The position numbers and the translations under genes were made by a program. From positions 104,344 to 168,343 of the forward strand of contig NZ_MWLK01000022.1 of the NCBI RefSeq assembly GCF_002198715.1: a stretch of 64,000 nt of DNA, in the 5' to 3' direction. The notes below the pieces were generated by a model, which was given only the letters and a program-made list of their open reading frames with translations, made no database searches and had not been told where the DNA came from. The DNA is from Rhodomicrobium sp. R_RK_3 (GTDB taxonomy: Bacteria > Pseudomonadota > Alphaproteobacteria > Rhizobiales > Rhodomicrobiaceae). Positions 48,830 to 63,552 of the stretch are shown here, piece after piece; positions within the stretch are counted from its first letter, which is position 1; each line of letters begins with the position of its first letter.

Positions 48830-50617
48830 TCAGAACTTCCGGCGGAACTCGGCGCGGAGGCCGAAATTGTCTTCGACCTCGGGATTGTCGACGATCTGAT
48901 AGGTCGCGTCGGCGCGGAACAGCCAGTCGTTGTTGAGCGGGATCTGGTAGCGGACGCCGAAGCCATATTGCGGGTCCGCCGTGCCGATGCCGGCGATGGT
49001 CTCGCCGAAGGGCTGCACCGTGGCCAATTCGAAGACGAGCTGCTGATCCAGATTGAACAGATATTGCAGGCCCACAGCGCCGCCATACGCGTTCGAGCCG
49101 GTGTCGTTGAGCTTGGGGAAGCCCGTCAGCGCGTCGGTCTCGAAGTTGATGCCGACATTCTTCAGGATGCCGGCGCCATTGCCGTCGACCAGCGGCTGCG
49201 GATTGCCGGAGCCGACGAAGAAGTTGGCATAGGGCAGCAGCGTGCTCGGCAGTCCCGAGATCAGGCTGTTTTCCGAGATGATGGCAAAGCCTTCGTCCTC
49301 GTCGCCATTGCCGAAATTGGCGAAGAAGCGCGTCGAGTTCGACAAGGTGTTGGCGTAGCGCCGCGTATAGGAGGCCGTGACGAAATTGGTCAACTGGCCG
49401 TCCACCTGGTCGTCGACGCCTTGGATCAGGCCGTAGCCGGCTTCGATATAGCCGCCGAAGGCGTCGATGAAGGTGGTCACGCCATAAAGGTTGGAGACGT
49501 TGTTGTTGCGGTTGGCGAAGTCGCCGCCATTGACGATGGCGTTGTCGACATTGTCCACCGCGGTGAAGAAGGTGATGTCGTAGTTGGACAGGCCCAGCTT
49601 CTGCGAGTTCTTGGCGGTGAGGCTCACCGCGCCGCCGAGGATGGCGTCGTTGGCCCAGATGCCGTTCTGCAGGAACAGCGGGAACAGACCCACGGTGAAC
49701 GGCAGATCGAAGCCGGCGGCCGAGCCCGACAGGCCGGAATAGATCGAGCCGACGTCGCCCTCGAAGAACAAGGTCTGCGGGTTCAGGTCGAATTCCTCGT
49801 TGAAGTCCTTATTGCCGTCGCCGCCGCCGAACTCGAAGCGGGTGAACTGATTGTTGTCCTGCAGCGGCGTGAAGAAGGCGTGGATGCGCTCGGTGCCGGT
49901 GATCTTGAAGTCGACGTCGATATTCACGCGCGTCGCGATCTGGGCGATGTCCTTGCCGTTATTCTGGTTGTAGGCGATCGCCGTGCGCCAGTCGCCGTAA
50001 ATGGCAAGGCCGGGGATCAGCAGGTTGTTCTGGCCAAGGAGCGAGCTCTCCTGATTGTAGTCGCCGGCCGTATATTGCTCGCGGCCCGCCTCGATCAGCG
50101 GACGCGACGGCTCGACCGCCTTCTTGGCGCCGTAGACGTCGACATTCTTGTCGGCGTTGTAATTGCCGTCATATTGCGGGCCGGGGCGGAAGAGGTCTTC
50201 CTTGCCGGACTTGTTGCTGCTCGTGCCGATCCCGGGATCCGACGTCTGGTCCGCGGTCTTGGCTTCGGAATATTGCTCGACATATTGCGCGTCGGAATCG
50301 CCGCCATCGCCCTGCGGGGCGGCCGCCCCCTGGCTCAACCGGCTTCCCTTGCCGCCGCTATTGATGCTTTCGCCCGGCGCGGCCAGCTTGCCTTCCTTGC
50401 GCGCCTCGTTGGTGCTCTCGCCGGCGGCGATCAACTTGCCGCCCTTGCGGGCCTCGTTGCTCAAACCTGCCTCAGCATTCGCCGCCGTGCCGGACATCGC
50501 AAGGTAGCCGCCGGCCACCAGCGCGGTCGTGGCCAGGACGGTCGTTGTCCTGACGCAATACCGTAGGTTGCCTTTTGCTCTCCAAGTCACGTGGAAACCC
50601 CCATCTGTCTTAGTCAC
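48830..50617 (-). CDS. Outer-membrane beta-barrel protein linked to multiheme cytochromes
   Basis: About 595 residues with a signal peptide (TTTVLATTALVAGGYLAMSGTAANA, cleavage before EAGL), a low-complexity N-terminal region with a tandem repeat (NEARKGGKLIAAGEST then NEARKEGKLAAPGES), and a long beta-rich body of alternating strands ending in phenylalanine (LRAEFRRKF), as beta-barrel outer-membrane proteins do. I do not recognise the family; it is not MtrB/PioB-like because it has no N-terminal C-x-x-C. It follows the pentaheme cytochrome gene on the same strand, separated by a 160-base hairpin-containing spacer, so a porin-cytochrome partnership is plausible. Start GTG 50617 has GGGAGAA upstream; GTG 50587 and ATG 50683 are alternatives. 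Confidence 0.75.
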   Translation of the reverse strand: MTKTDGGFHVTWRAKGNLRYCVRTTTVLATTALVAGGYLAMSGTAANAEAGLSNEARKGGKLIAAGESTNEARKEGKLAAPGESINSGGKGSRLSQGAAAPQGDGGDSDAQYVEQYSEAKTADQTSDPGIGTSSNKSGKEDLFRPGPQYDGNYNADKNVDVYGAKKAVEPSRPLIEAGREQYTAGDYNQESSLLGQNNLLIPGLAIYGDWRTAIAYNQNNGKDIAQIATRVNIDVDFKITGTERIHAFFTPLQDNNQFTRFEFGGGDGNKDFNEEFDLNPQTLFFEGDVGSIYSGLSGSAAGFDLPFTVGLFPLFLQNGIWANDAILGGAVSLTAKNSQKLGLSNYDITFFTAVDNVDNAIVNGGDFANRNNNVSNLYGVTTFIDAFGGYIEAGYGLIQGVDDQVDGQLTNFVTASYTRRYANTLSNSTRFFANFGNGDEDEGFAIISENSLISGLPSTLLPYANFFVGSGNPQPLVDGNGAGILKNVGINFETDALTGFPKLNDTGSNAYGGAVGLQYLFNLDQQLVFELATVQPFGETIAGIGTADPQYGFGVRYQIPLNNDWLFRADATYQIVDNPEVEDNFGLRAEFRRKF

Positions 50618-50777
50618 CCAATTCTCCCTCGTCTCGACGTCAGGCAGGGCCGTCCCTCGGACCCGCCAAGTGGGATTCACCACCCCACTTGGGCCACAGC
50701 AGATCGCTGTCGATGCGGTGATCTTCGTGGCTCTGACCCGCGGGGCTGCCCGCCCCGCAGGATGTCTCGGAAAGGCT

Positions 50778-50843: not shown

Positions 50844-52850
50844 TCACTTCACTTCCACATCCACGGCGAAGGCATGGAAGCTTGCCATCCGCTCATTCAT
50901 GCGCTGCTCCATTTCCTTGGTGGCACCGACGAAGCGCATGAAGTAGATCGGCTCGGCCCGGCTGCGCATGCGGAAGGCGAGGCGGTACTTGCCGGGCTTG
51001 GTAATCAGCCTGCCCGGCACGTTGTAGCTGGCCACCTTCTCGCCGAGCGGCGTCAGCGAGTGGTTCTCCATGCGCACCAGCGGCGGATGGTTGAGAACCG
51101 TGGTCGGGACCTGCGGCGCGCGCAGCTGCGGCAGCTGGTCGATGTCGAAGTTCACCGGCAGGTACATTTCACGGTCCGTGCCCTTGATGTTGGTGGTCAA
51201 GAACTTGGTCTGGAAGTGCACCAGCTGCTGGTCGGTCTTGATGCTGCCAGCCGCCACGTCGAGGCTGTGCAGGTCGGCCATGTCGCCATTGCTGTCGATA
51301 TAGCCGGACTCCCAGACATTCTGGCCGTCAGGATCGACGAGGGCGACGTTCACCCAGAGCTGCGGCTGCGCACCCAGCGAACCGGACGGCAGGTTGTGCC
51401 CTGTATTCATGTTCTTGATCTTGTAGGAGAAGGCCAGATCGCCGCCGACCCTGGGCTTGCTTTCGATATAGGGGCCGTCGACCTTGCTGCTGTTCTCCAT
51501 CACCTCATGCCGGAGCGCGTCGCGTGCGTCGAGCTTCTTGAGGTTCTCTTCGATGATCACGCGGCCGTCTTCACGATCGAGGGCATCGGCCCAGCGCTGC
51601 GGGAAGTTGACCTTGATCTTGCCGTCGGCAACCTTGTCCTCGAAGTCCTTGGTGCCCCAGCCGGCGCGCCAGTCGAACTGGAGCCAATCCTTGATGCTGA
51701 AAGCCTGGGCCTTCTTGTTCTGCGGGAAGATGCCGGGATGGGCGATCGAATAGCCGGGGCCGACGAAGCTGTGATTGGCGTGCTTGCGTCCCGGATTGAT
51801 CTCCTTGCCGCCGACGATGGCGGAGGGAGCGGTCGCGTAACCCTCGGCCTTGCCCGGAACCTGACCCATATGGCAGTCCTGGCAAGTCACGCCGGCTTTC
51901 TTGGCCGGGCTGTCGCGATATTGATCCCACACGATCTCGAGCTTGATGCCGAGGTTCACCGCCACCTGATGGCAACTGACGCAGAACTCCGACGTCTTCA
52001 TCTGGCTGTTGAGGATCATGCCGTCGTGAATGTCGTTACCGCGCCCTTCGGGGCTGGTCTTGACCGAATAGCTGTCCTTGTTGGCAAGAACGTCCTTGAT
52101 CACGCTCTTTTCGCCGCTGCCATAGACCGGCTCGTAGATCTTGCCCGGCTCGACCCGGCGTTCGCCGTTGACCTTGCCGTAGTTCTCCTTGACGCGGTGG
52201 CAGGTGATGCAACTGATGCCCTCGCGCGAGATCTGGCTGCGCGCCCAGAGCGGGGTGTCGCGAGCCTCGCCGAGCTGCGTGCCGACCTGCTGGTGGCAGC
52301 GCACGCAGAAGGTGCCGACCGTGCCGCGCGTGAGCTCCTGGAACTTCTGCTCGAAGGCGTGGAACATCGGCGAGATCGAGGCATAGGCGTGCTGCGAGGA
52401 AGACCATTCCTCATAGATCTGCTTATGGCATTCGCCGCATTGCGCGGCGGTCGGATATAAAGAGAGCGTCTCCTCGTCGACCGCCGGAATCGGCGATTCC
52501 TTGCCTTTGGATTCTCTCGCGGCCGCGGCGAGGAGGGAGGTCTGCCCATAGCCGTCCGCGTCGGCATCGGCGGACAGCTTCTGCTCGCCGCCGACGACTT
52601 GTGACTTGGCGCCTTCGCCCGAGGCTCGTTTCGCCTCGTCCTCCTTGATCAGAGCCTCGAGCGCCGAATGCGCGTCGATGGCTCCGTGCGTTCCGACATT
52701 TTGGGCAAATCTCAGCCCGGGCTGTGCTTGTACGGTTGGCGCCGCCAAGGTCTCGGTGGACCCGGCGACGGCCGTATGGCTCAGGAATGCCGCTTGCAGC
52801 AAAACGGCGCTGGCGAAAGCGCCCATGGATAGTGCGGTTCGTCGTTTCAT
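50844..52850 (-). CDS. Pentaheme c-type cytochrome (c554-like N-terminal region)
   Basis: A 668-residue exported cytochrome with five CxxCH sites: CGECH (138), CVRCH (182), CITCH (214), CVSCH (290) and CQDCH (323). The signal peptide is MKRRTALSMGAFASAVLLQA..AVA, with a twin-arginine-like start. The first heme segment (AAQCGECHKQIYEEWSSSQHAYA) is of the cytochrome c554 type. The C-terminal 330 residues have no heme sites and read as a beta-sandwich (SYKIKNMNTGHNLPSGSLGAQPQLW...) before ending in a charged tail. I know of no characterised orthologue. The ATG at 52850 has AAGGGGCG upstream. It is divergent from ccmF and upstream of the barrel gene. Confidence 0.88.
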   Translation of the reverse strand: MKRRTALSMGAFASAVLLQAAFLSHTAVAGSTETLAAPTVQAQPGLRFAQNVGTHGAIDAHSALEALIKEDEAKRASGEGAKSQVVGGEQKLSADADADGYGQTSLLAAAARESKGKESPIPAVDEETLSLYPTAAQCGECHKQIYEEWSSSQHAYASISPMFHAFEQKFQELTRGTVGTFCVRCHQQVGTQLGEARDTPLWARSQISREGISCITCHRVKENYGKVNGERRVEPGKIYEPVYGSGEKSVIKDVLANKDSYSVKTSPEGRGNDIHDGMILNSQMKTSEFCVSCHQVAVNLGIKLEIVWDQYRDSPAKKAGVTCQDCHMGQVPGKAEGYATAPSAIVGGKEINPGRKHANHSFVGPGYSIAHPGIFPQNKKAQAFSIKDWLQFDWRAGWGTKDFEDKVADGKIKVNFPQRWADALDREDGRVIIEENLKKLDARDALRHEVMENSSKVDGPYIESKPRVGGDLAFSYKIKNMNTGHNLPSGSLGAQPQLWVNVALVDPDGQNVWESGYIDSNGDMADLHSLDVAAGSIKTDQQLVHFQTKFLTTNIKGTDREMYLPVNFDIDQLPQLRAPQVPTTVLNHPPLVRMENHSLTPLGEKVASYNVPGRLITKPGKYRLAFRMRSRAEPIYFMRFVGATKEMEQRMNERMASFHAFAVDVEVK

Positions 52851-53290
52851 CGCCCCTTCTTCCCCCATAGATTTCAGGGTGGCCCCGATTTGATCGCTCA
52901 AGCGAAAACGGCGCTCGACCGCCGTACGGGATTGCTGAACCGGAGATTAATAATCAAAAGGGGCGTTAGATGGCCGCGTCTGAAGCGAAACCATGACAAA
53001 GATGGCAAGTTTGAGATAGATGTTATGAAAATTTCTAATCCATCGAAAAAATGACATTAGATTCAATGGGTTGGAAATATGCCCCGCTGCCACAATGATT
53101 GTGTTATGGCAATTCTGAAGCGAAAAAAATCGAATTATATTGTTCACGGGATGGGGCCGAATTGCCATAGTCCAGACAGCAAGCCGCCCATTCATCGCCT
53201 TATAAAAGCTCTAGGGTAGGCCTCTCCGGAAAGCGCGTGTACCGGCAACGTTCCCGCATGCGCCTTCACTCATCCGCAATAAGGGAAATC
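52851..53290. promoter_or_regulatory. Divergent control region between pentaheme cytochrome and ccmF
   Basis: A 440-base, comparatively AT-rich region. It holds a 13-base palindrome CACAATGATTGTG (53091-53103), flanked by TGCCA/TGGCA (53088 and 53107), and a perfect 10-base inverted repeat TATGGCAATT (53105-53114) with AATTGCCATA (53160-53169), 45 bases apart. Short A-tracts surround these. The layout suggests one or two regulators controlling cytochrome and maturation genes together. I did not find a TTGAT-N4-ATCAA (FNR) box. Confidence 0.55.
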
Positions 53291-55276
53291 GTGGTGGTCG
53301 CTGAAACCGGTCATTTTGCCCTCATCCTGACATTGACGCTCGCGCTGGCGCAATCGGTCGTGCCCTTGATCGGAACCCGCCTCGGCGATCTGCAATTGAT
53401 GCGATTCGCCTCGTCCGCGGCGATCGGGCAGATGGTCTTCCTGACCGCCGCTTTCGCCGCGCTGATCGGCTGCTATGTCATGTCCGATTTTTCGGTGCTG
53501 AATGTCGCCGAAAATTCCAACTCGGCGATGCCGCTAATCTATAAGGTGACGGCCGCCTGGGGCAATCACGAAGGCTCGATGCTGCTCTGGGTGCTGATTC
53601 TGGCGATCTTCGGCGCGGCAGTGGCGATTTTCGGCGGCAACCTGCCGGCGCCGCTGAAAGCGCGCGCGCTTGCGGTGCAGGGCACGGTGGGGACGGGCTT
53701 CCTGGCCTTCATCCTGTTCACCTCCAACCCCTTCATCCGGCTGTTTCCAGCCGCGCCCGACGGCCAGGATCTCAATCCCCTGCTGCAGGATATCGGGCTG
53801 GCGATCCATCCGCCTTTCCTCTATCTCGGCTATGTCGGGTTCTCGATGGCGTTTTCCTTCTCCGTCGCCGCTCTGATCGAGGGCAAGGTCGATGCGAGCT
53901 GGGCGCGCTGGGTGCGGCCCTGGGTGCTCGCCGCCTGGTGTTTCCTGACCATCGGCATCACGCTCGGCAGCTTCTGGGCCTATTACGAGCTCGGCTGGGG
54001 CGGCTGGTGGTTCTGGGACCCGGTCGAGAACGCCTCCTTCATGCCCTGGCTGGCTGGCACCGCCCTGCTGCATTCCGCGCTCGTCGTCGAGCGCCGCCAG
54101 ACGCTGGTCAACTGGACCATCCTGCTCGGCATCTTAACCTTTTCCCTCAGCCTGATCGGCACGTTCGTGGTCCGCTCCGGCGTGCTGACCAGCGTGCATT
54201 CCTTCGCCATGGACCCGGCGCGCGGCGTGTTCATCCTCGGCCTGATCGCGCTGACTTCGGGCGGCGCTCTGGCGCTCTACGCCTATCGCGCGCCGTCCCT
54301 CAAGCAGGGGGCGCCCTTCGCCGGCTTCAGCCGCGAATCGAGCCTCGTCATGAACAACGTGCTGCTGCTCTCGGCCTGCGCCACCGTCTTCCTGGGCACC
54401 TTCTATCCGCTCATCATCGAAGCGACGAGCAACGACAAGATCACCGTCGGCGCGCCCTTCTACAACCTCACCTTCGTCCCGATGATGATTCCGCTGCTCA
54501 TCGTCATGGTGCTCGGGCCGATGCTGAAATGGAAACGCGACAGCATTCGCGCCGGCCTGGCGAAACTGATGCGGCCGGCCGTCATTGCCGGTCTCGTCCT
54601 GGCCGCGATCCTCATCGCCACATTCGGCGCCCATGCGCTCGCTGCCTTCGGCTTCGCCCTGGCGGTCTGGGTGATCGTCGGATCGCTCGCCATCCTGGCG
54701 CACCGCACCCGGCTTGGACAGGTGCCCGTCCCGGCCAGCCTGCATCTGGCGCGGCTCACCCCGCGCTCGGTCTACGGCCTCGTCCTCGCCCATGCCGGCA
54801 TCGGCGTTACGGTCGCCGGGATCACCGCCATGTCGGCCTGGAAGCAGGAGGAGCTGCGCTCGCTGCCGGTCGGCGGCCAGCTCGATGTCGGCGGCTATCA
54901 TGTGACGCTGAAATCGGTCTCGGACGTTGCCGGTCCCAACTATCAGGCCGAGCGGGCGCTGTTCGACATCGGCCGCAATGGCAGCCACGTCTCCACGCTG
55001 CATGCCGAGCGCCGCTATTATTCGGTCCGCCGCACGCAGACCACCGAGGCCGGCATACACACCAATCTGTTCTCGAATGTCTATCTCGCCATCGGCGAGC
55101 GGAACGGCACGAAGGAATGGACGGTGCGGGCCTATTACCATCCGCTCGCGCCCTGGATCTGGTTCGGGCCGATCATCATGGCGCTCGGCGGCTTCGTCTC
55201 GCTTTCGGATCGCCGCTTCCGCCTGGGGGCGCCGCAACGGGCGCGGCGCGCTCCGGCGCTCGCCCCGGCCGAATAG
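53291..55276 (+). CDS. ccmF: Cytochrome c-type biogenesis protein CcmF
   Basis: A heme lyase subunit of about 661 residues with many transmembrane helices. It has the tryptophan-rich heme-handling motif WGGWWFWDPVENASFMPWL, the preceding YYELGWG, and PPFLYLGYVGFSMAFSF. CcmF with CcmH and CcmI attaches heme to CxxCH apocytochromes in the periplasm. GTG 53291/53294 (VVVAETGHFALILTLTLAL) is the likely start, since homologues begin M-A-E-x-GHFAL; the preceding 18 codons are unlikely. First of ccmF-ccmH-ccmI. Confidence 0.95.
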   Translation: MVVAETGHFALILTLTLALAQSVVPLIGTRLGDLQLMRFASSAAIGQMVFLTAAFAALIGCYVMSDFSVLNVAENSNSAMPLIYKVTAAWGNHEGSMLLWVLILAIFGAAVAIFGGNLPAPLKARALAVQGTVGTGFLAFILFTSNPFIRLFPAAPDGQDLNPLLQDIGLAIHPPFLYLGYVGFSMAFSFSVAALIEGKVDASWARWVRPWVLAAWCFLTIGITLGSFWAYYELGWGGWWFWDPVENASFMPWLAGTALLHSALVVERRQTLVNWTILLGILTFSLSLIGTFVVRSGVLTSVHSFAMDPARGVFILGLIALTSGGALALYAYRAPSLKQGAPFAGFSRESSLVMNNVLLLSACATVFLGTFYPLIIEATSNDKITVGAPFYNLTFVPMMIPLLIVMVLGPMLKWKRDSIRAGLAKLMRPAVIAGLVLAAILIATFGAHALAAFGFALAVWVIVGSLAILAHRTRLGQVPVPASLHLARLTPRSVYGLVLAHAGIGVTVAGITAMSAWKQEELRSLPVGGQLDVGGYHVTLKSVSDVAGPNYQAERALFDIGRNGSHVSTLHAERRYYSVRRTQTTEAGIHTNLFSNVYLAIGERNGTKEWTVRAYYHPLAPWIWFGPIIMALGGFVSLSDRRFRLGAPQRARRAPALAPAE

Positions 55277-55288
55277 GAGCACACCTCT

Positions 55289-55774
55289 ATGAAGCACCGC
55301 CTTCTAGTGGCATCCTTTCTACTCTGCGCGCTGGCGGCGTCCAGGCCTTCGCTGGCCGTCGAGCCGAGCGAGGTGCTTGCCGATCCGGCGCTGGAGCTGC
55401 GGGCGCGCAATCTCAGCCAGCATCTGCGCTGCGTCGTCTGCCAGAACCAGTCCATCGACGATTCCAACGCCCCGCTCGCCCGCGATCTGCGCGTTTTGCT
55501 GCGCGAGCGGCTGCAGGCCGGCGATTCGGATGAAGCCGCCAACGCCTATATCGTTGCCCGCTATGGCAATTTCGTCCTGCTGAAGCCGCCCGTGCAGATC
55601 AACACGCTGCTCTTGTGGTTCGGTCCGGCCCTCATATTCATGTTGGCGCTCTTCGCCGGCTGGAGCCTCGTCCGCAGGCGTCCCGGCACTGCCGAGGCCG
55701 ATGCGTCCCCGGCATTGACGGAGGCGGAACGCAAGGCATTGCAATCCATTCTTAAAGAAAGTCCAACGGCATGA
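55289..55774 (+). CDS. ccmH: Cytochrome c maturation protein CcmH
   Basis: A 161-residue membrane-anchored thioredoxin-like protein. The redox pair is in LRCVVCQNQSIDDSNAPLARDLR (C-x-x-C), after a signal sequence (FLLCALAASRPSLA), and a C-terminal transmembrane helix (LLLWFGPALIFMLALFAGWSLV). It reduces the CxxCH thiols before heme attachment. The gene is 12 bases from ccmF and its stop overlaps the ccmI start (ATGA). Confidence 0.95.
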   Translation: MKHRLLVASFLLCALAASRPSLAVEPSEVLADPALELRARNLSQHLRCVVCQNQSIDDSNAPLARDLRVLLRERLQAGDSDEAANAYIVARYGNFVLLKPPVQINTLLLWFGPALIFMLALFAGWSLVRRRPGTAEADASPALTEAERKALQSILKESPTA

Positions 55775-57021
55775 CGCTTTGGTTGATTCTCACCATTCTA
55801 TCGGCGGTCGCTGCCCTGATTGTCGCGGCGCCGTTCCTGTTCCGCGGCGCCAATACGGGCGCTGCGTCCAGCATCGATGTCTATAAGGACCAGCTCGCCG
55901 AAGTTGAACGCGACCGGACGCAGGGGCTGATCGAGGAGGCCGAAGCCGCCTCCATGCGCCTCGAGATCGAAAGGCGGATTCTGTCGGCGGGCAAAGCCGA
56001 GAACGGTCCCGCCGATCGGGTCGCGCCGAACTGGCAATACCGCATGGTGACCGGCGTCACCTCCATCGTCATCCTGGGCTCGGTCGGGCTCTACGCTTCG
56101 CTCGGCCGTCCGGAATTGGCGGCGGTTTCCGCTCCCGCGCAGGATGCATGGGCGCAGCGGGCGGCGGTGGTCGCCGGGCCGCAAGGCCAGACCGCTCAGG
56201 CGGTGGAGGGCCAGCCCGGCGGCGGCGACGTCGAGGCGATGGTGAAGCGGCTCGAGCAGCGGCTGGAGGCCAACCCGAAGGATGCCGATGGCTGGCGCGT
56301 GCTCGGCTGGTCCTACGACACCATCGGGCGCAATCAGGACGCCGTCACCGCCTATGGCAAGGCCGTCGAGCTGCAGAAGGACAACCCGACCCTGCGCGCC
56401 CTTTATGGCGAGGCGCAGGTCAAGGCGGCCGGCATGGTGACGGACGCGGCGTTGGCGACTTTCGACGAGGTGTTGGCGATGAACCCCAATGACGAGCGCG
56501 CCCGCTTCTTCAAGGGGGCCGCCAAGCAGCAGAAGGGCGATACGCAAGGCGCCATCGACGATTGGCTGGCGCTCTACAAGATCGCGCCCGCCGATGCCGA
56601 ATGGACCGGCGATCTGCGCAGCCGCATCGAGGAATCCGCCAAGGCCGCCGGCATCGACGTCAGCGCCAAGCTCGCCGAGGCCAAACCGGCGGGCGCCGCC
56701 GTGGCGCAGGCTCCTGCCATGCCTGCCCACCCTGGCGCCGTAGGCCCGAGCGCGGCCGATATCGAGAGCGCCAAGCAGCTCAGCGACCAGGATCGCCAAT
56801 CGATGGTGTCGGGCATGGTCGACCGGCTCGCGGGCCGTCTGGAGACCTCGCCGAAGGATCCCGATGGCTGGATCATGCTGATCCGCTCGCGCATGGCGAT
56901 GAAGGATGCCGAGAAGGCGCGGGCCGCGCTCGAGAAAGCCAAGACCGTGTTCGCCGACGAGCCCGAGACGCAGCAGCGCATCGTTCAAGCGGCGCAGGCC
57001 ATGGGCGTGGCCGCCAACTAG
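55771..57021 (+). CDS. ccmI: c-type cytochrome biogenesis protein CcmI
   Basis: A 416-residue apocytochrome chaperone with an N-terminal two-helix membrane module (LWLILTILSAVAALIVAAPFLF and MVTGVTSIVILGSVGLYASLG) around a cytoplasmic loop (VYKDQLAEVERDRTQGLIEEAEA). The periplasmic part has TPR repeats (KDADGWRVLGWSYDTIGRNQDAVTAYGKAVELQKDNPTL), followed by an Ala/Pro-rich linker and a second helical domain. It delivers apocytochrome c to CcmF/CcmH. Four-base overlap with ccmH. Confidence 0.93.
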   Translation: MTLWLILTILSAVAALIVAAPFLFRGANTGAASSIDVYKDQLAEVERDRTQGLIEEAEAASMRLEIERRILSAGKAENGPADRVAPNWQYRMVTGVTSIVILGSVGLYASLGRPELAAVSAPAQDAWAQRAAVVAGPQGQTAQAVEGQPGGGDVEAMVKRLEQRLEANPKDADGWRVLGWSYDTIGRNQDAVTAYGKAVELQKDNPTLRALYGEAQVKAAGMVTDAALATFDEVLAMNPNDERARFFKGAAKQQKGDTQGAIDDWLALYKIAPADAEWTGDLRSRIEESAKAAGIDVSAKLAEAKPAGAAVAQAPAMPAHPGAVGPSAADIESAKQLSDQDRQSMVSGMVDRLAGRLETSPKDPDGWIMLIRSRMAMKDAEKARAALEKAKTVFADEPETQQRIVQAAQAMGVAAN

Positions 57022-57812: not shown

Positions 57813-60356
57813 CTAAGGCGTCGGGATCCTGGTATTCATGATCGGCGTGACGACGCCGTTCACGTGGTACTTGTGGCAGGTCAGGCAGTCCTGGCGCGCC
57901 ATGGTGCTGGTGTGGCAGGTCTGGCAGAGCTCCTTTTTCACCGCACCGAAATTAGAGACGAAGCTCAGCGGATTGCCCTGCTCATAGCTCTTCAGATAGG
58001 GCCGGCCTTTTTCGAGATTATGGCAGGTGAGGCAGCCGCGATTCTCCAGGATGCCGAAATGCGGCTCATGGATGAAATTGGTGAAGCGCCCCTGCTTGGT
58101 GTCGACCTTGGGCGGGGAGAAATTCACCAGCCGCCCCTTGCCCCGGATATCATCGACGCTGTGACATTTCGTGCAGGAGCCCTGGGCGTCCTTGTCGATC
58201 AGAGAATCGAACACAGCCGCCGCCGGGCCTTTATTGCCCTTGGGCGCCTGCGGTCCCGTCAGGAACAGCCAGGAATAGATGAACTTGTCCTTGTGACCCG
58301 TCGGGCGATAGAAAATGCCGAAATCCTGGTGATACCAGCCGCCATATTCGGCCCAGCTCTCCGCGTCCACGTCGCTTTGTATGCTGACGATGCCGGGCGC
58401 GGCGCGGCCCTGCGGCTCGGCGCCAGCAGGGGCGGCGTCCGCAGGGGCCGCGCTGACTTCGGGCGAGGCGCCGCCGACGGGGCCGTCGCTCGCGCCACCC
58501 GTGGAGTCCGCCGCTCCACCATCGGGGTTCAGCAGATCGTCATTTTGGTCACCCGGCTTGCCCTGCGGAGGCGGATCGGCGGCGGCGACCTGCCTGCCGC
58601 CTCCGGCCGGGGCTTCGGGACGGGCTGCTGCCCTCGGCTGGGGCTGAGCGGCAACCGGCTCGTTTTCCGGGCCTCTTGCCGGGGCCTCGGCCGTTCCGCC
58701 ATCCGGCGAGAGCAGGTCGTCGGTCTGGTCCGCCGCCTTGGCCTGGGGCTGAATGTCCGCGGAGGCCGGTTCCCTCGCCGCGCTTACGGGCGGGGCGGCC
58801 TGGGCGGTCTCGATTCCCTCTTCCGGGGTCTTTGCGACCCGGCCATAGGGATCGATCCGCAGGCTTTTCTCGGCGACCGTGCCGGGCGTGCTCTTGGATT
58901 GGACCAGTTGATTGGCCTGAGCCAGTTGGACCGGCTTGGCCGAGCTGGCGGCGTCGCCGCCTCCGGTCTGCGGGGCTGATCGGGGCGATGCCTGAGGCGA
59001 GCCCGCGCCGAACAGCTCCTCGGGAGAGACCGAGGCCGCCAAACGCGATTCGGTGATCGCAGCGGCCCAGCCGCCCTGGTCCTGATCGCTCGCGGCCTGG
59101 CCGCTGGCCATTTCCGTGGCAAGATTGGGCAGCCACTCCTGGTGCGCGCTGATGACCACGTCGCGCGGCAGGCTCGCCGTCAGGTCGGCGACCAGACTGG
59201 GGCTGAGCTTCGCCCCGCCGCCGATGTTGAGGTCGCCGAGGACGTCGGAGGCTTTGCCCGAGATCAGCGCGTAGAACAGGCCCTTGATCTCCCATACGAG
59301 GCCCGTCACGGCCTTGAGCTGCTCCTCGGTCGCGTTGCCGAGATCCTGGAGATTCACGCCGCTCACGGTCTTGATGATGGCGCGGCCCTTCTCGCTCCGG
59401 CTGATCATCACCTTCATGAACGGGGTGAGCTCGGCCTCGGACCCTTCCGGCCATTCGCCGATCGCGGCGTTCTTCTCCTTCAGCGTCCGCACGTCGAGGC
59501 CGGGCAGCGTCAGGAAGGCGATGCCTTTCGGGCCGGTTGCCCGTTCCTTGCCGACGATCTGGTCCAAATGGCAGTCGGTGCAGGTCTGCTCGAACGGCGC
59601 GACCGCCATGATGCGCTTGTCCGCGCGGCTCGTATGGCAGGTCGAGCAGGTCGCGGGAATGCGCTTTTCCTTGTCCTTCTGCGCCACGTCGGGGAAGTGC
59701 TTGCCGAAATGGCCGGCATGGTCATAGACGATCTGCGTGCGGCTCTTGAACGGGTAATTGTCGAATCGCGGGTGATCGCCATCGAAGCTGTCGAACTTCA
59801 CCACATGGCAGGAGCGGCACTGCTCGTTGGAGATCTTGCTCAGATTGAAATTGGCGCCCTTGTGTTCCTGGTGGCAGGTCGCGCAGTTGAGGCCGCCCGC
59901 AACCGCCGCATCGGTCGGGAAGGCGATGCTCTGGGCGCGGGCCGATTGCGGCGCCGGCGTCACCGCCGCGACTTTCGCCAGCCGTTTGGTGCTCTGCTTC
60001 AAGACGTCCGGCAGAGCGCCATGCGGGTTGAAGGCCGTCTTCGGCATCTTGTGGCAGGTCAGGCAGGCCTTGCTGTCGGCGAGCGGATCGCCGGGAACGA
60101 GGCCCTGCACCCAACTGAAACTGCCGCTGCCGCTCTTGGTGTGGCAGGCGCCGCAATTCTCGATGGCGCCGTGAGCGCTGGCCAATGGCCCCGGCGCCAG
60201 AAACTGCTTTCCGCTGGAGAACAAGAAGGCCGCGCCGAGGCAAATGGCGGTGACGATCGCCAGCAGCACCGCCAAACGGTCGCGCGGGGAGGGCGGCTTC
60301 GACGGCCGCTCGGCCCTCGGAGCCCGTCCCGATCTCATTCGTACTGGTCGCCGCAT
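57813..60356 (-). CDS. Decaheme c-type cytochrome, membrane-anchored
   Basis: An 847-residue protein with an N-terminal cytoplasmic basic tail, one membrane anchor (residues 27-46, LAVLLAIVTAICLGAAFLFS) and ten CxxCH motifs in two groups: CGACH (68), CLTCH (98), CATCH (158), CRSCH (180), CSTCH (237), CTDCH (259), and CTKCH (728), CLTCH (775), CQTCH (811), CLTCH (824). Between them is a heme-free domain (about 270-440) and a Pro/Ala/acidic linker (about 440-655) with a duplicated DQxDDLLxPDGG motif. A second folded segment (WYHQDFGIFYRPTGHKDKFI) precedes the last four hemes. No characterised homologue comes to mind. The ATG shares a base with the cytochrome b stop codon (TGATG), so the two are coupled. 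Confidence 0.88.
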   Translation of the reverse strand: MRRPVRMRSGRAPRAERPSKPPSPRDRLAVLLAIVTAICLGAAFLFSSGKQFLAPGPLASAHGAIENCGACHTKSGSGSFSWVQGLVPGDPLADSKACLTCHKMPKTAFNPHGALPDVLKQSTKRLAKVAAVTPAPQSARAQSIAFPTDAAVAGGLNCATCHQEHKGANFNLSKISNEQCRSCHVVKFDSFDGDHPRFDNYPFKSRTQIVYDHAGHFGKHFPDVAQKDKEKRIPATCSTCHTSRADKRIMAVAPFEQTCTDCHLDQIVGKERATGPKGIAFLTLPGLDVRTLKEKNAAIGEWPEGSEAELTPFMKVMISRSEKGRAIIKTVSGVNLQDLGNATEEQLKAVTGLVWEIKGLFYALISGKASDVLGDLNIGGGAKLSPSLVADLTASLPRDVVISAHQEWLPNLATEMASGQAASDQDQGGWAAAITESRLAASVSPEELFGAGSPQASPRSAPQTGGGDAASSAKPVQLAQANQLVQSKSTPGTVAEKSLRIDPYGRVAKTPEEGIETAQAAPPVSAAREPASADIQPQAKAADQTDDLLSPDGGTAEAPARGPENEPVAAQPQPRAAARPEAPAGGGRQVAAADPPPQGKPGDQNDDLLNPDGGAADSTGGASDGPVGGASPEVSAAPADAAPAGAEPQGRAAPGIVSIQSDVDAESWAEYGGWYHQDFGIFYRPTGHKDKFIYSWLFLTGPQAPKGNKGPAAAVFDSLIDKDAQGSCTKCHSVDDIRGKGRLVNFSPPKVDTKQGRFTNFIHEPHFGILENRGCLTCHNLEKGRPYLKSYEQGNPLSFVSNFGAVKKELCQTCHTSTMARQDCLTCHKYHVNGVVTPIMNTRIPTP

Positions 60357-61210
60357 CACCACGCCCCCGACGAAAAGGCATAGGCGACGATGACGTGCAG
60401 CACCATCAGTACGAATAGCCCATAGGTGACCGGCACATGCACGAAAAGCCAGGCCTTGGTCAAGCCGAGATAGACGCGCGCGAAATCGAGCCGGTCCTTC
60501 TCGATGACCAGCTCCCTGACGATGGCCAGCTTCTCCTGGCTCGGCTTGTCGACATAGCGGGACAGATTGTCGATCTCCACCGTCAGCCGCTTGATGTGCC
60601 GCCGCGAGCCGATCAGATGGGCGGCGAAATTGCGCTGGCCTTCGAAGAAATCGCGCAGGTGGTTGGCGTAGAGGTCCATCACCCAGGCGTCATGCGGCGC
60701 CGCCGGCAAGGCGAATGCCGCCGCGGCCGGGTCGGCCTTGGTGACGGCGGCGTGGACGTCGCGCGCCAGCTCGGCGCGGCGGGCCGGGATGCGATCGAAG
60801 CCGGTGCCCTCCTCGATGCCGCTCTTGGCCTTCAGGCCCCAGGCGAGATAGGTGCCGAAAATGCCGCTCAGCGTCACCAGCACGAAGCCGAGCCAGAGCG
60901 CCCATTCGAAGCCGCTGTCCGGCAGGGAGAAATCCGAATGCGAGACGAAGGCGGCGACCAGCAGATAGCCGAGGAAGATATGGATCTTGCGCCAGCGCAT
61001 GGCGGCTTTCGGCGCCAGCCGCGAGGTCTTGATGGCGATGTGGAAATAGAGCTGGACGGTCATGCCGCTGGCGAGCAGCCAGCCGTCGAGGAAGCGGGGG
61101 TCGCGCAGGCCGTTGCCATAGATCCAGACAAGCCAGAACAGGCCGCCGGAAATGGCGGCGATCAGAACGCCCTGGATTGTCTGGCCGTTGACAAATCTGG
61201 CGAGGCCCAT
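60356..61210 (-). CDS. Five-helix diheme cytochrome b
   Basis: A 284-residue integral membrane protein with helices at about 13-32, 43-60, 75-92, 103-125 and 252-279, and a large cytoplasmic or periplasmic loop of helical character (about 128-250). H77 and H91 in helix 3 and H258 and H272 in helix 5 are each spaced by 14 (H-x13-H), the arrangement that stacks two b hemes in ferric reductases and NADPH oxidases. It has no flavin domain of its own; a separate FAD/2Fe-2S reductase is encoded three genes upstream in the same operon. ATG 61210 is chosen; GTG 61261 is an alternative with a better ribosome binding site. Confidence 0.8.
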   Translation of the reverse strand: MGLARFVNGQTIQGVLIAAISGGLFWLVWIYGNGLRDPRFLDGWLLASGMTVQLYFHIAIKTSRLAPKAAMRWRKIHIFLGYLLVAAFVSHSDFSLPDSGFEWALWLGFVLVTLSGIFGTYLAWGLKAKSGIEEGTGFDRIPARRAELARDVHAAVTKADPAAAAFALPAAPHDAWVMDLYANHLRDFFEGQRNFAAHLIGSRRHIKRLTVEIDNLSRYVDKPSQEKLAIVRELVIEKDRLDFARVYLGLTKAWLFVHVPVTYGLFVLMVLHVIVAYAFSSGAW

Positions 61211-61346
61211 ACCGCGTCCACCGATCGAGGCGTCGCCCGCGCGCCGTCCCGCCGATCTCACGGCAGCCTCACAAAATCACCCATCCGCGGTGGTTCTTTC
61301 CCCATCAAATCCATTCAGCTTGTTGTCGTTGGCCGGCTGGCCGGGA

Positions 61347-62411
61347 TCAATTGGTTGCGCCGGCCTTCGTCGCCGTGCCCTTGAACTTGTCCGGTCCCGG
61401 GATCAGGCTGTCGAGCCCGGCCAAGGTGCTGCCGTCATATTTCTGAGTGACGCTCACGAGCAGCTTGGAGACGCCGTCGGCAGCCGCCGTCAGGTACCGT
61501 TCATTATTTAATTTCAGTCCGGCTGAATAGGCAAATTTGACCATCTCCGCAATTTCCGGCACGCCCGGCGCCGCCTTCGCCGCGGCGGAGAGCTGCTTGC
61601 GCGCGCGGTCGACGCGCTTGGCCATTTCGAAGGCATATTGCTTTCTCGCCGTCGCGCGGGCAACGCCGCGAATGCCGGTCTCGAGCTCGACGCCAAGGCC
61701 GACGAGATAGAGCATCCGCTTGCGCGCGGCGTCCGCCGGCACGTTGTCCTTGCCCTTGGAGAGCCAGGTATTGTGCCGCACCTCGCCCTGCGACCAGGAC
61801 ACGAGTTCAAACGCGCTGCCGGCGGGATGGCCGCCTTTGTTCACCAGGTCCTCTTGCGGCACCACATGGCAGCCCAGGCAGTTCTTCGCCAGCGCATAGA
61901 GCGATTCCGGCCGGATCATGCCCTTGGAATCGGCGAGCTTCCAGCGCGCCTCCTTTTCGGCCTTTGTCTCCGACTGCTCGGTCTTGCCGCTGAACTCGCT
62001 ATGGACCTTGATCCAGTCCTGTCCGGCGCTATGGCAGGATTCGCAGGAGATGCCGGCGACGACCTCCTCCTTGCCGTCCTTCTGCTGCACCGTGTAATGG
62101 CAGTTCAGGCACAGCCCTTCCGACCGGATGCGGCGCACGCCCATCTTGTCGGCGATCTCCTTCGCCTTCTCGTTGCGCGGCAATTCGCGGAAGGTCTTGA
62201 AATGGTGCGAGCCCTTCCAGGCCTCCGTCTCCTGCTTGTGGCATTCGCCGCAGGCATTCGGTCCGAGCGTCTTGGCCGGATCGGACGCGACGGCGCGATC
62301 CGCGGCAAGGCCGAACAGCATCAGCAAGCCGCAGAGGCCAAGCATGGGAGACTGGAGACGGGCCCTTAGGCCAAAGCCGGTCGACCGACGGCTAAGCGCT
62401 CTGAGGAGCAT
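61347..62411 (-). CDS. Tetraheme c-type cytochrome, c554 family
   Basis: A 354-residue periplasmic cytochrome with a signal peptide (LGLCGLLMLFGLAADRAVAS, cut near residue 43) and four CxxCH motifs: CGECH (54), CLNCH (101), CESCH (123), CLGCH (178). The layout (ACGECHKQETEAWKGSHHFKTF, then ISCESCHSAGQDWIKVHSEF) is that of cytochrome c554, the Nitrosomonas electron carrier from hydroxylamine oxidation. The heme-free C-terminal half (about 200-354) is helical and extra. Its start overlaps the reductase stop by 20 bases, so they are co-translated. No HAO gene is present here. Confidence 0.88.
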   Translation of the reverse strand: MLLRALSRRSTGFGLRARLQSPMLGLCGLLMLFGLAADRAVASDPAKTLGPNACGECHKQETEAWKGSHHFKTFRELPRNEKAKEIADKMGVRRIRSEGLCLNCHYTVQQKDGKEEVVAGISCESCHSAGQDWIKVHSEFSGKTEQSETKAEKEARWKLADSKGMIRPESLYALAKNCLGCHVVPQEDLVNKGGHPAGSAFELVSWSQGEVRHNTWLSKGKDNVPADAARKRMLYLVGLGVELETGIRGVARATARKQYAFEMAKRVDRARKQLSAAAKAAPGVPEIAEMVKFAYSAGLKLNNERYLTAAADGVSKLLVSVTQKYDGSTLAGLDSLIPGPDKFKGTATKAGATN

Positions 62412-63552
62412 AACGACTTCTCACCCTTCTTTCCGATTCGGCCATTCTGGAACCCTGCCTCGGCTGATCGCGCCGCTGACTGGGGGCCGGCAGCGCGAGC
62501 TGCCCCTTCTGCCGGCTGGGGATGGCAATGCGGTCGCGCACCGCCGCGGTGGGCAGGGCGAGCCATTCCATGGCGCGGGTCAGAATGCCTTCCTCAACCG
62601 TGTCGTTGTTGTTCGCCACGAACGGGTCGGCGTAGCAGACCGCGCCGAAGCGCGCCGCGATCGCCTTGATCGAGTCGACCATGGCCGGCATGCCGCAGGC
62701 ATAGAGCACATCGGACGGCAGCAGGCGGGGCAGGAAGTCGGTCGGCCGGCCGGCCTTCACCGCCTTGCTCAAAGTCTGCGGGGTGCTGCAGCACGGCACG
62801 ACGCGAACGTTCGGGAAACGCGCCAGCCGCACCAGAGCCGGGCCCATATAGAGCGACTCGACGGTGCGGCCGCCGGCGATGATCATGATCCGGCGATCCG
62901 GATTTTCGCGCAGGGCGGCGACGGCGATCGACCAGATCGGCGCAAAGCCGGTATTGGTCGCGACCAGGATCAGCCGGCCTTCCAGATTGGGGCGGAAATG
63001 CGCCGAGCCATAGGGCCCGCTCACCTGCACCCGGTGGCCGAGCGTGATGCGCCTGCCGATCAGCGGGGTGACGCGCCCCTCCTCCATCTTGCGGATGTGG
63101 AACCACACCGAGCGGCCGTTCGGGCTGCCGCGCAAGGGATGGGTGATGCTGAAGGGGCGGGTCGGATAGCCGCTGAATTTGATCTGCGCATATTGCCCGG
63201 CATGATAGGGCAGGGCGCGCTCGGTCCTGATGCCGACCTCCATCACGTCGCGCGACAAGGGGCGCAGCGAACTCAGCACGCCGTCGACGGTGATGGCGGG
63301 CGAGGACTGGCCGCGCTCGATGACCACATCCCCGACGATCCGGCTTTGACAGGCATGAATCGTGCCTGGAGCCGAGCCTTCGCCGCCATGGACCTGGCCT
63401 TCGAGGAGTTGAACGCAGCAGGTGCCGCAATGTCCGGCGCGGCAGTCATAAGGCAGTTCGATGCCGTTGCTCAGAGCGGCGTCCAGCAGCAACTCGCCGC
63501 GGCGCGCCGAAAAGCTTTCGCCATTGATCGTAATCTGGTGGCTTTTTGCCAT
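62392..63552 (-). CDS. 2Fe-2S/FAD/NAD(P)H oxidoreductase
   Basis: A 386-residue cytoplasmic protein without signal peptide. The N-terminal plant-type ferredoxin domain ligates a 2Fe-2S cluster through C37, C42, C45 and C68 (DCRAGHCGTCC then HACQS). The FAD domain has TRPFSI (131-136) and the NAD(P) domain GPYGSA, ATNTGFAPIWS and YACGMPAMVDS. This is the architecture of phenol-hydroxylase or methane-monooxygenase reductases. Here it heads an operon with a tetraheme cytochrome, a diheme cytochrome b and a decaheme cytochrome, so its likely partner is the cytochrome b. A basic C-terminal tail (about 360-386) is unusual. Confidence 0.9.
   Translation of the reverse strand: MAKSHQITINGESFSARRGELLLDAALSNGIELPYDCRAGHCGTCCVQLLEGQVHGGEGSAPGTIHACQSRIVGDVVIERGQSSPAITVDGVLSSLRPLSRDVMEVGIRTERALPYHAGQYAQIKFSGYPTRPFSITHPLRGSPNGRSVWFHIRKMEEGRVTPLIGRRITLGHRVQVSGPYGSAHFRPNLEGRLILVATNTGFAPIWSIAVAALRENPDRRIMIIAGGRTVESLYMGPALVRLARFPNVRVVPCCSTPQTLSKAVKAGRPTDFLPRLLPSDVLYACGMPAMVDSIKAIAARFGAVCYADPFVANNNDTVEEGILTRAMEWLALPTAAVRDRIAIPSRQKGQLALPAPSQRRDQPRQGSRMAESERRVRSRYAPQSA

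Follow-up and report, generated by a model that had tools for sequence, protein, structure and literature searches.

A PCC4 Subgroup I gene cluster in Rhodomicrobium sp. R_RK_3 and the candidate electron donor of its predicted diheme cytochrome b

Gene content and identity of the cluster

The DNA examined here (the window) is a 64,000-nucleotide stretch of contig NZ_MWLK01000022.1 of Rhodomicrobium sp. R_RK_3, positions 104,344 to 168,343. It holds a cluster of porin and multiheme cytochrome genes of the type known as PCC4, including a stand-alone reductase, here called RED1, and a membrane protein with two pairs of histidines, here called the b protein. In the list of open reading frames (ORFs), the genes for RED1, a tetraheme cytochrome, the b protein and a decaheme cytochrome form one tight minus-strand operon with the following features:

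62392..63552, minus strand: RED1, stand-alone reductase of 386 aa; Pfam Fer2, FAD_binding_6 and NAD_binding_1, each above cut-off
61347..62411, minus strand: tetraheme c554-like cytochrome of 354 aa; four CXXCH motifs, Cytochrome_C554 E 8.1e-18
60356..61261, minus strand: b protein (PCC4 inner-membrane protein), 301 aa from a GTG start; conserved His motifs
60980-60982, 60938-60940, 60437-60439 and 60395-60397, minus strand: codons of b protein H94, H108, H275 and H289, respectively
60683..60709, minus strand: b protein insert LPAAPHDAW, residues 185-193, in the predicted cytoplasmic domain (from the alignment)
57813..60362, minus strand: decaheme c cytochrome of 849 aa with an N-terminal hydrophobic segment; ten CXXCH motifs, multiheme domains (Pfam)

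The start of the tetraheme gene overlaps the RED1 stop by 20 bases, and the start of the decaheme gene overlaps the b gene stop by 7 bases; an alternative ATG start for the b protein is possible at 61210. The ORFs and Pfam domains confirm an observation made in a preliminary description of this DNA, that a stand-alone 2Fe-2S/FAD/NAD(P)H-type reductase and a cytochrome b-like protein are encoded in one operon. An additional 2Fe-2S relay had also been proposed; a [2Fe-2S] ferredoxin domain does exist, but it sits inside RED1 and is not a separate protein. Further cluster genes, along with a set of maturation genes, lie at lower coordinates:

53237..57021, plus strand: ccmF, ccmH and ccmI-type c-type cytochrome maturation genes; CcmF_C, CcmH and TPR_CcmH_CycH matches
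50844..52901, minus strand: pentaheme c cytochrome of 685 aa; Cytochrome_C554 E 4.3e-9
48830..50683, minus strand: porin-like outer-membrane protein of the PCC4 cluster, 617 aa; homologues adjoin the pentaheme gene in PCC4 loci

The closest homologue of the window pentaheme protein (locus L021) has five CXXCH motifs and adjoins a porin homologue and a RED1 operon.

PCC4 was described by He et al. (2017; PMC5566968) as comprising a porin, an inner-membrane protein, further redox proteins and periplasmic cytochromes that carry 4, 5 and 10 hemes. The inner-membrane protein is given five helices, an SGxxG motif and two W-x3-H-x13-H motifs, and its likeness to the ferric reductase domain (FRD) of NADPH oxidases (NOX) and ferric reductases was already pointed out there (PMC5566968). 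Subgroup I, reported in the same text from Hyphomicrobium only, is without the PF13247 Fe-S gene, and its tetraheme gene is preceded by a redox gene whose domains are the same but differently ordered (PMC5566968). The window cluster is PCC4 Subgroup I. It encodes proteins with 4 and 10 CXXCH motifs and adjacent pentaheme and porin-like homologues, the b protein carries the PCC4 motifs, and RED1, the redox gene that precedes the tetraheme gene, has the order Fer2-FAD-NAD. No PF13247-type gene is present in the operon, and no full-length match to the polyferredoxin of other PCC4 clusters was found anywhere in the window genome. The window differs from the published subgroup in having the ccmFHI genes between the two halves of the cluster, both halves being on one strand, and apparently in its taxonomic position, as the window genome belongs to family f1 and a relative that is presumably a Hyphomicrobium (G008) to family f2. 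The ccm genes are associated with the cluster and are not PCC4 parts. Other RED1-type loci in which both halves can be seen have them adjacent and divergent.

The arrangement, which the preliminary description had taken to be potentially new, was therefore already on record, and a split NOX-like pair, the diheme b protein MsrQ with the flavin reductase Fre of E. coli, is also known (PMC5676040, PMC11031084). MsrQ-Fre and the NOX/ferric reductases are alike in that a diheme membrane b is fed by a flavin NAD(P)H reductase, and MsrQ-Fre shares with the window the encoding of reductase and b as separate proteins. Fre is not known to have a ferredoxin domain. In NOX, the reductase is fused with the FRD, whereas the window has separate genes at 62392-63552 and 60356-61261; unlike in either system, the acceptors in the window would be multiheme c cytochromes. 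No experimental test of PCC4 was found in the portion of the literature searched.

Conserved histidines and fold of the b protein

Counted from the GTG start, the two histidine pairs are H94/H108 and H275/H289; their initial numbering, H77/H91 and H258/H272, was based on the ATG at 61210. The pairs were compared across 59 aligned homologues with 22-75% identity to the window protein; the partial or broken copies at L064, L077, L089 and L090 were omitted from this alignment and from the tree described below. The spacing is exactly H-x13-H, twice, in 59/59 rows, and the only invariant columns are H94, H108, G133, D259, H275 and H289. Because the histidines are invariant across homologues of such varied identity, their conservation is not due to chance. 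Both W-x3-H-x13-H motifs are kept in 53/59 rows and SGxxG in 49/59, and in the window protein these read W90/H94/H108, W271/H275/H289 and S132-G-I-F-G136. A Pfam scan found no flavin domain in the b protein, in agreement with the preliminary description.

An AlphaFold2 model built from the 59 rows (pLDDT 84.3, pTM 0.73; a model from 10 rows gave pLDDT 75.5) contains helices at residues 19-50, 55-78, 84-108 and 117-147, helical pieces across 155-234 and a long helix at 239-297, making up five membrane helices and a helical domain. H94 and H108 fall in the third long helix (84-108), and H275 and H289 in the fifth membrane helix (239-297). Counts of K/R and D/E are 5 and 1 in the N-terminus, 4 and 0 in the loop between transmembrane helices (TM) 2 and 3, and 0 and 3 in the TM3-4 loop. 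Judging from the sequence, the N-terminus, the TM2-3 loop and the large domain are probably cytoplasmic and the TM3-4 loop outside. TM3 and TM5 would run parallel, with H94 and H275 binding an inner heme and H108 and H289 an outer heme.

NOX/FRD proteins likewise have paired histidines about 13 residues apart on TM3 and TM5, but they have six helices and belong to PF01794, whereas the window b protein is predicted to have five. No match to Ferric_reduct (PF01794) was found for the window protein up to E 1 or for any of the 59 homologues up to E 0.01. Profile-profile comparison gave the b profile a probability of 18% against a Ferric_reduct set (18/19 sequences used) and 25% against a b561 set (18/18), with 0.6% for the FRD versus b561 control; these similarities are too weak to assign the b protein to either family. 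Against Prokaryotic cytochrome b561 / Ni_hydr_CYTB (PF01292), the window protein scored 26.8 bits, under the cut-off of 30.1, and 15/59 homologues matched at E 0.01 or better; a distant kinship with this family may exist. A Foldseek search of the model against the PDB returned 249 matches at E ≤ 10 and zero at E 0.001. The matches from a VIA structure comparison were mostly long-helix sensors and coiled coils. Plant cytochrome b561 (4o7g; Z 7.9, root-mean-square deviation [rmsd] 3.1 over 142 residues) and human Dcytb (5zle; Z 7.3, rmsd 3.3 over 140 residues) fell within the helical-bundle noise band, and no NOX/FRD chain was among the 50 VIA matches listed. The 59-row profile searched against PDB sequences drew four coiled-coil-like noise matches (best E 0.36). 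The NOX/ferric-reductase core originally proposed for this operon is thus retained in its split layout and histidine spacing, but membership of the b protein in the NOX/FRD family is not supported by the sequence tests.

Reductases that accompany the b protein

RED1 has the domain order [2Fe-2S] ferredoxin-FAD-NAD(P). FNR-like oxygenase reductases of the BenC type are marked by four [2Fe-2S] cysteines, an FAD motif RxxS and an NAD(P) loop GxGxxP. In RED1, the cluster cysteines Cys37/42/45/68 and the motif R132-P-x-S135 are kept in 23/23 rows, drawn from 22 separate loci because L022 and L053 are the same contig. The nearest solved structure is 5ogx (E 8.6e-28), and RED1 scores 98.9 bits against the BenC model, far below its cut-off of 430.

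The b protein was found in 8/61 genomes searched among relatives, the window genome included, and a b profile search matched 36/297 genomes of the order, 17 with full-length strong hits (20 rows) and 19 with partial hits only. A scan of named genomes gave 61 b loci, from Hyphomicrobium, other Hyphomicrobiales, Anderseniella, bacterium MnTg02, Tistlia, a gammaproteobacterium, Verrucomicrobia and Planctomycetes. All 61 have a decaheme homologue; the dedicated multiheme partners suggested earlier are real and conserved. RED1 adjoins the tetraheme-b-decaheme genes at 22/61 loci, none of which has a polyferredoxin or RED2. At 34/61 loci, the b gene lies beside a polyferredoxin (4x[4Fe-4S], with cNMP-binding domains), and 26 of these 34 also have in the flank RED2, a reductase of another domain order. 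The other five loci (L039, L051, L066, L089 and L090), all cut upstream by a contig end, were not typed. The preliminary description had counted consistent pairing of b homologues with a different electron donor as a point against it; this is partly so, given the polyferredoxin-type loci, while RED1 remains the neighbour at the 22.

A maximum-likelihood tree of the 59 b proteins separates 25 RED1-clade rows from the rest by a single branch (100/99); among the 25 are L039 and L051, where contig ends cut off the view of RED1. Under midpoint rooting, these rows are nested among polyferredoxin-type rows. The RED1-type arrangement has a single origin, and since most loci are polyferredoxin-type, usually with the other reductase, the candidate donor RED1 belongs to one derived clade. 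An insert of 9-12 residues in the predicted cytoplasmic domain is present in 25/25 RED1-clade rows and 0/34 others. Adaptation of the b protein to a new partner would be expected to leave such an insert and a single branch. On the simplest reading, one ancestor would have replaced the polyferredoxin/RED2 pair with RED1, the docking surface changing along with it. Whole searches of 11 RED1-type genomes found no full-length polyferredoxin match elsewhere: matches occurred in 6, none spanning more than about 112 of 597 residues. RED2 was matched in 9 of these 11, at best 34% over residues 60-326 (genome of L045) and in the window genome 30% over residues 86-426; a distant RED2-like protein may be encoded in these genomes.

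The polyferredoxin-type loci correspond to PCC4 Subgroup II. They share with the window the b, tetraheme, decaheme, pentaheme and porin families and differ in having the cNMP-binding 4x[4Fe-4S] protein and a FAD-NAD-ferredoxin reductase and in lacking the b insert. The RED2 order FAD-NAD-ferredoxin was seen in 3/3 PCC4 copies scanned, and RED2 has an apparent N-terminal membrane segment, read from the sequence. In 30 full-length polyferredoxins, 16 Cys columns are at least 90% conserved, as for 4x[4Fe-4S]. The polyferredoxins occur, among other Subgroup II loci, at:

L023:8535-10841, cNMP-binding polyferredoxin
L024:4977-6878, cNMP-binding polyferredoxin
L025:6062-7855, cNMP-binding polyferredoxin
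L026:9980-11683, cNMP-binding polyferredoxin

The Pfam domain cNMP_binding was found in 4/4 copies scanned, and 21/30 copies have an FG..PR motif (with Glu in 19/30) that we take to resemble a phosphate-binding cassette. As the polyferredoxin carries both, cyclic-nucleotide control of the Subgroup II conduit is suggested. The term "cyclic nucleotide" is absent from the main text of He et al. (PMC5566968), and a literature search on the topic found nothing.

Eleven genomes with parts missing from the b-locus flank were searched whole for RED2 and the pentaheme protein. A RED2 copy of 49-63% was found in 4/11, in three of these on another contig than the examined b locus; in G070, the copy on another contig is beside a second b locus, L119. 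A pentaheme match was found in 11/11, weak in one, and in 5/5 planctomycete genomes fetched the pentaheme and porin genes are on another contig than the b locus.

Partial b-profile hits were sampled at four places (L124, L125, L126 and L127). Three encode single proteins of 664-679 aa with Pyr_redox_2, Rubredoxin_C, a BFD-type [2Fe-2S] domain and a C-terminal membrane domain (Pfam):

L124:633-2648, fused reductase-b protein
L125:1981-4020, fused reductase-b protein
L127:2097-4091, fused reductase-b protein

Their b domains match positions 31-121 of the PCC4 b profile (E 1.3e-7 to 6e-11 per genome), both H-x13-H motifs are legible by eye in the L124 protein, and a gene with many CXXCH motifs follows each. 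The fused proteins resemble the window system in combining a related b domain, a [2Fe-2S] domain, an NAD(P)-type flavoreductase and a multiheme partner, and differ in that the reductase is of the rubredoxin-reductase type and is fused ahead of the b domain. No porin was recognised near them within the 4.5-5 kb fetched. L126 encodes a separate 320 aa protein with a multiheme neighbour and no Pfam match at E 0.01. The fused reductase, a third kind of NAD(P)-type [2Fe-2S] flavoreductase, is covalently joined to a related b domain. No other comparative evidence in this analysis speaks as strongly for such reductases feeding the b domain.

Some loci depart from these patterns. At L066:3-4159, a gap of about 140 bases without a polyferredoxin separates the tetraheme and b genes, the b protein is without the RED1-type insert, and RED2 and the pentaheme gene are on another contig of the genome. 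L029:6748-10083 (G038) likewise has no polyferredoxin between the tetraheme and b genes and no RED1-type insert. Both are possible intermediates or split clusters. At L077:3156-12808, from a Breoghania sp. metagenome-assembled genome, five cluster genes are broken into several ORFs, by decay or sequencing error. A glutamate dehydrogenase gene is located inside several Subgroup II clusters (L025:13018-14397, L028:15148-16518, L063, L067, L070, L075 and L082) and is of the ELFV family by Pfam in the two scanned, L025 and L028. Beyond the window, 5' of RED1, are MerR-like, IHF-like and fatty-acid synthesis genes, named by reading the sequences.

Direction of electron flow

We consider it somewhat better than even, with a probability of roughly 0.55, that the PCC4 Subgroup I conduit runs from NAD(P)H through RED1 and the diheme b protein to an acceptor outside. 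RED1 in the cytoplasm would move electrons from NAD(P)H onto FAD and then to its [2Fe-2S] cluster, dock on the b protein at its cytoplasmic domain and reduce the inner heme (H94/H275). Electrons would cross the membrane to the outer heme (H108/H289) and pass to the anchored decaheme cytochrome, the tetraheme cytochrome and the pentaheme-porin pair, reaching an acceptor at or beyond the outer membrane with the quinone pool bypassed. The gene neighbourhood speaks for this reading, with RED1 next to the tetraheme-b-decaheme genes at all 22 named loci of its type and RED2, a different NAD(P)-type [2Fe-2S] reductase, at 26/34 polyferredoxin-type loci; so do the single branch, the insert of the RED1 clade and the fused proteins. 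Energetic reasoning also favours outward flow, as electrons would go downhill in redox potential, from a low-potential carrier to ones of higher potential, and would leave the negative side of the membrane for the positive one; the opposite direction would call for an energy input that the operon does not show.

Several points weigh against this proposal. Gene linkage is not proof of electron transfer. At the first Gly position of the RED1 GxG loop, 18 of the 23 rows have Asn, 3 have Ser and 2 have Gly, both Gly rows being from one contig, and with Asn predominating the binding of NAD(P)H by RED1 is uncertain. The planctomycete b locus consists of polyferredoxin, b and decaheme genes alone, which speaks against a reductase always accompanying the b protein; in seven planctomycete genomes the best matches to RED2 reach no more than 27-32%, and a reductase may therefore not be needed by every b homologue. 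The window genome encodes the RuBisCO large subunit with both Pfam domains (G000:C19:43507-44430; L122:8042-9502), making CO2 fixation possible, and this would fit a lithoautotroph in need of inward electrons. He et al. propose a quinone-active diheme b with electrons moving inward from outside, and cite habitats suited to Fe(II)/Mn(II) oxidation (PMC5566968).

In the model of He et al., Fe(II), Mn(II) or another donor outside the cell would give up electrons that pass through the porin and the c cytochromes to a quinone-active b and on into the quinone pool, with RED1 as an accessory; we regard this as rather unlikely. It gains from the RuBisCO gene and from the presence of a PCC4 cluster in bacterium MnTg02, which from its name is presumably a Mn oxidiser. 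As published, the model was drawn from habitats and from analogy to the bc1 and hydrogenase cytochromes b (PMC5566968). It leaves unexplained why three kinds of reductase (RED1, RED2 and the fused type) occur beside this b fold, as well as the insert in the cytoplasmic domain and the donor swap. Nor was a quinone site identified in the b protein, none having been sought by structure. Inward electrons could also end on NAD(P)+, with RED1 making NAD(P)H for carbon fixation. FNR-type reductases are reversible in principle and the RuBisCO large subunit would suit such a route, but it would run uphill in potential and against the membrane potential, and the operon has no energy-coupling subunit; by this reasoning we hold it improbable. 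It is more doubtful still, and in our estimate very improbable, that the operon encodes a genuine NADPH oxidase or ferric reductase in two separate pieces, making superoxide or Fe(II) at the outer heme. The shared H-x13-H helices and flavoreductase chemistry speak for this, and the parallel is drawn by He et al. (PMC5566968), but it is at odds with the decaheme gene at every named b locus and with the failure of the window protein and its homologues to match Ferric_reduct.

Within the preferred reading of outward, RED1-fed flow, we put forward a broader proposal as a tentative possibility: PCC4 would be a quinone-independent, trans-envelope counterpart of NADPH oxidase with a swappable donor, in which an ancestral cyclic-nucleotide-gated polyferredoxin and membrane-anchored reductase were both replaced in the window clade by one flavo-iron-sulfur reductase, RED1, the b protein gaining a new insert for docking. 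The donor swap makes the question of what feeds the b protein directly testable, since the conduit exists in two versions that differ in donor and, to match, in the b protein insert.

The evidence on the electron donor is what the present analysis adds to the description of PCC4. If a reductase, and not the quinone pool, feeds the diheme b protein, cells could pass electrons from NAD(P)H to the outside, and a reductase-fed b protein would reverse the published guess on the direction of flow.

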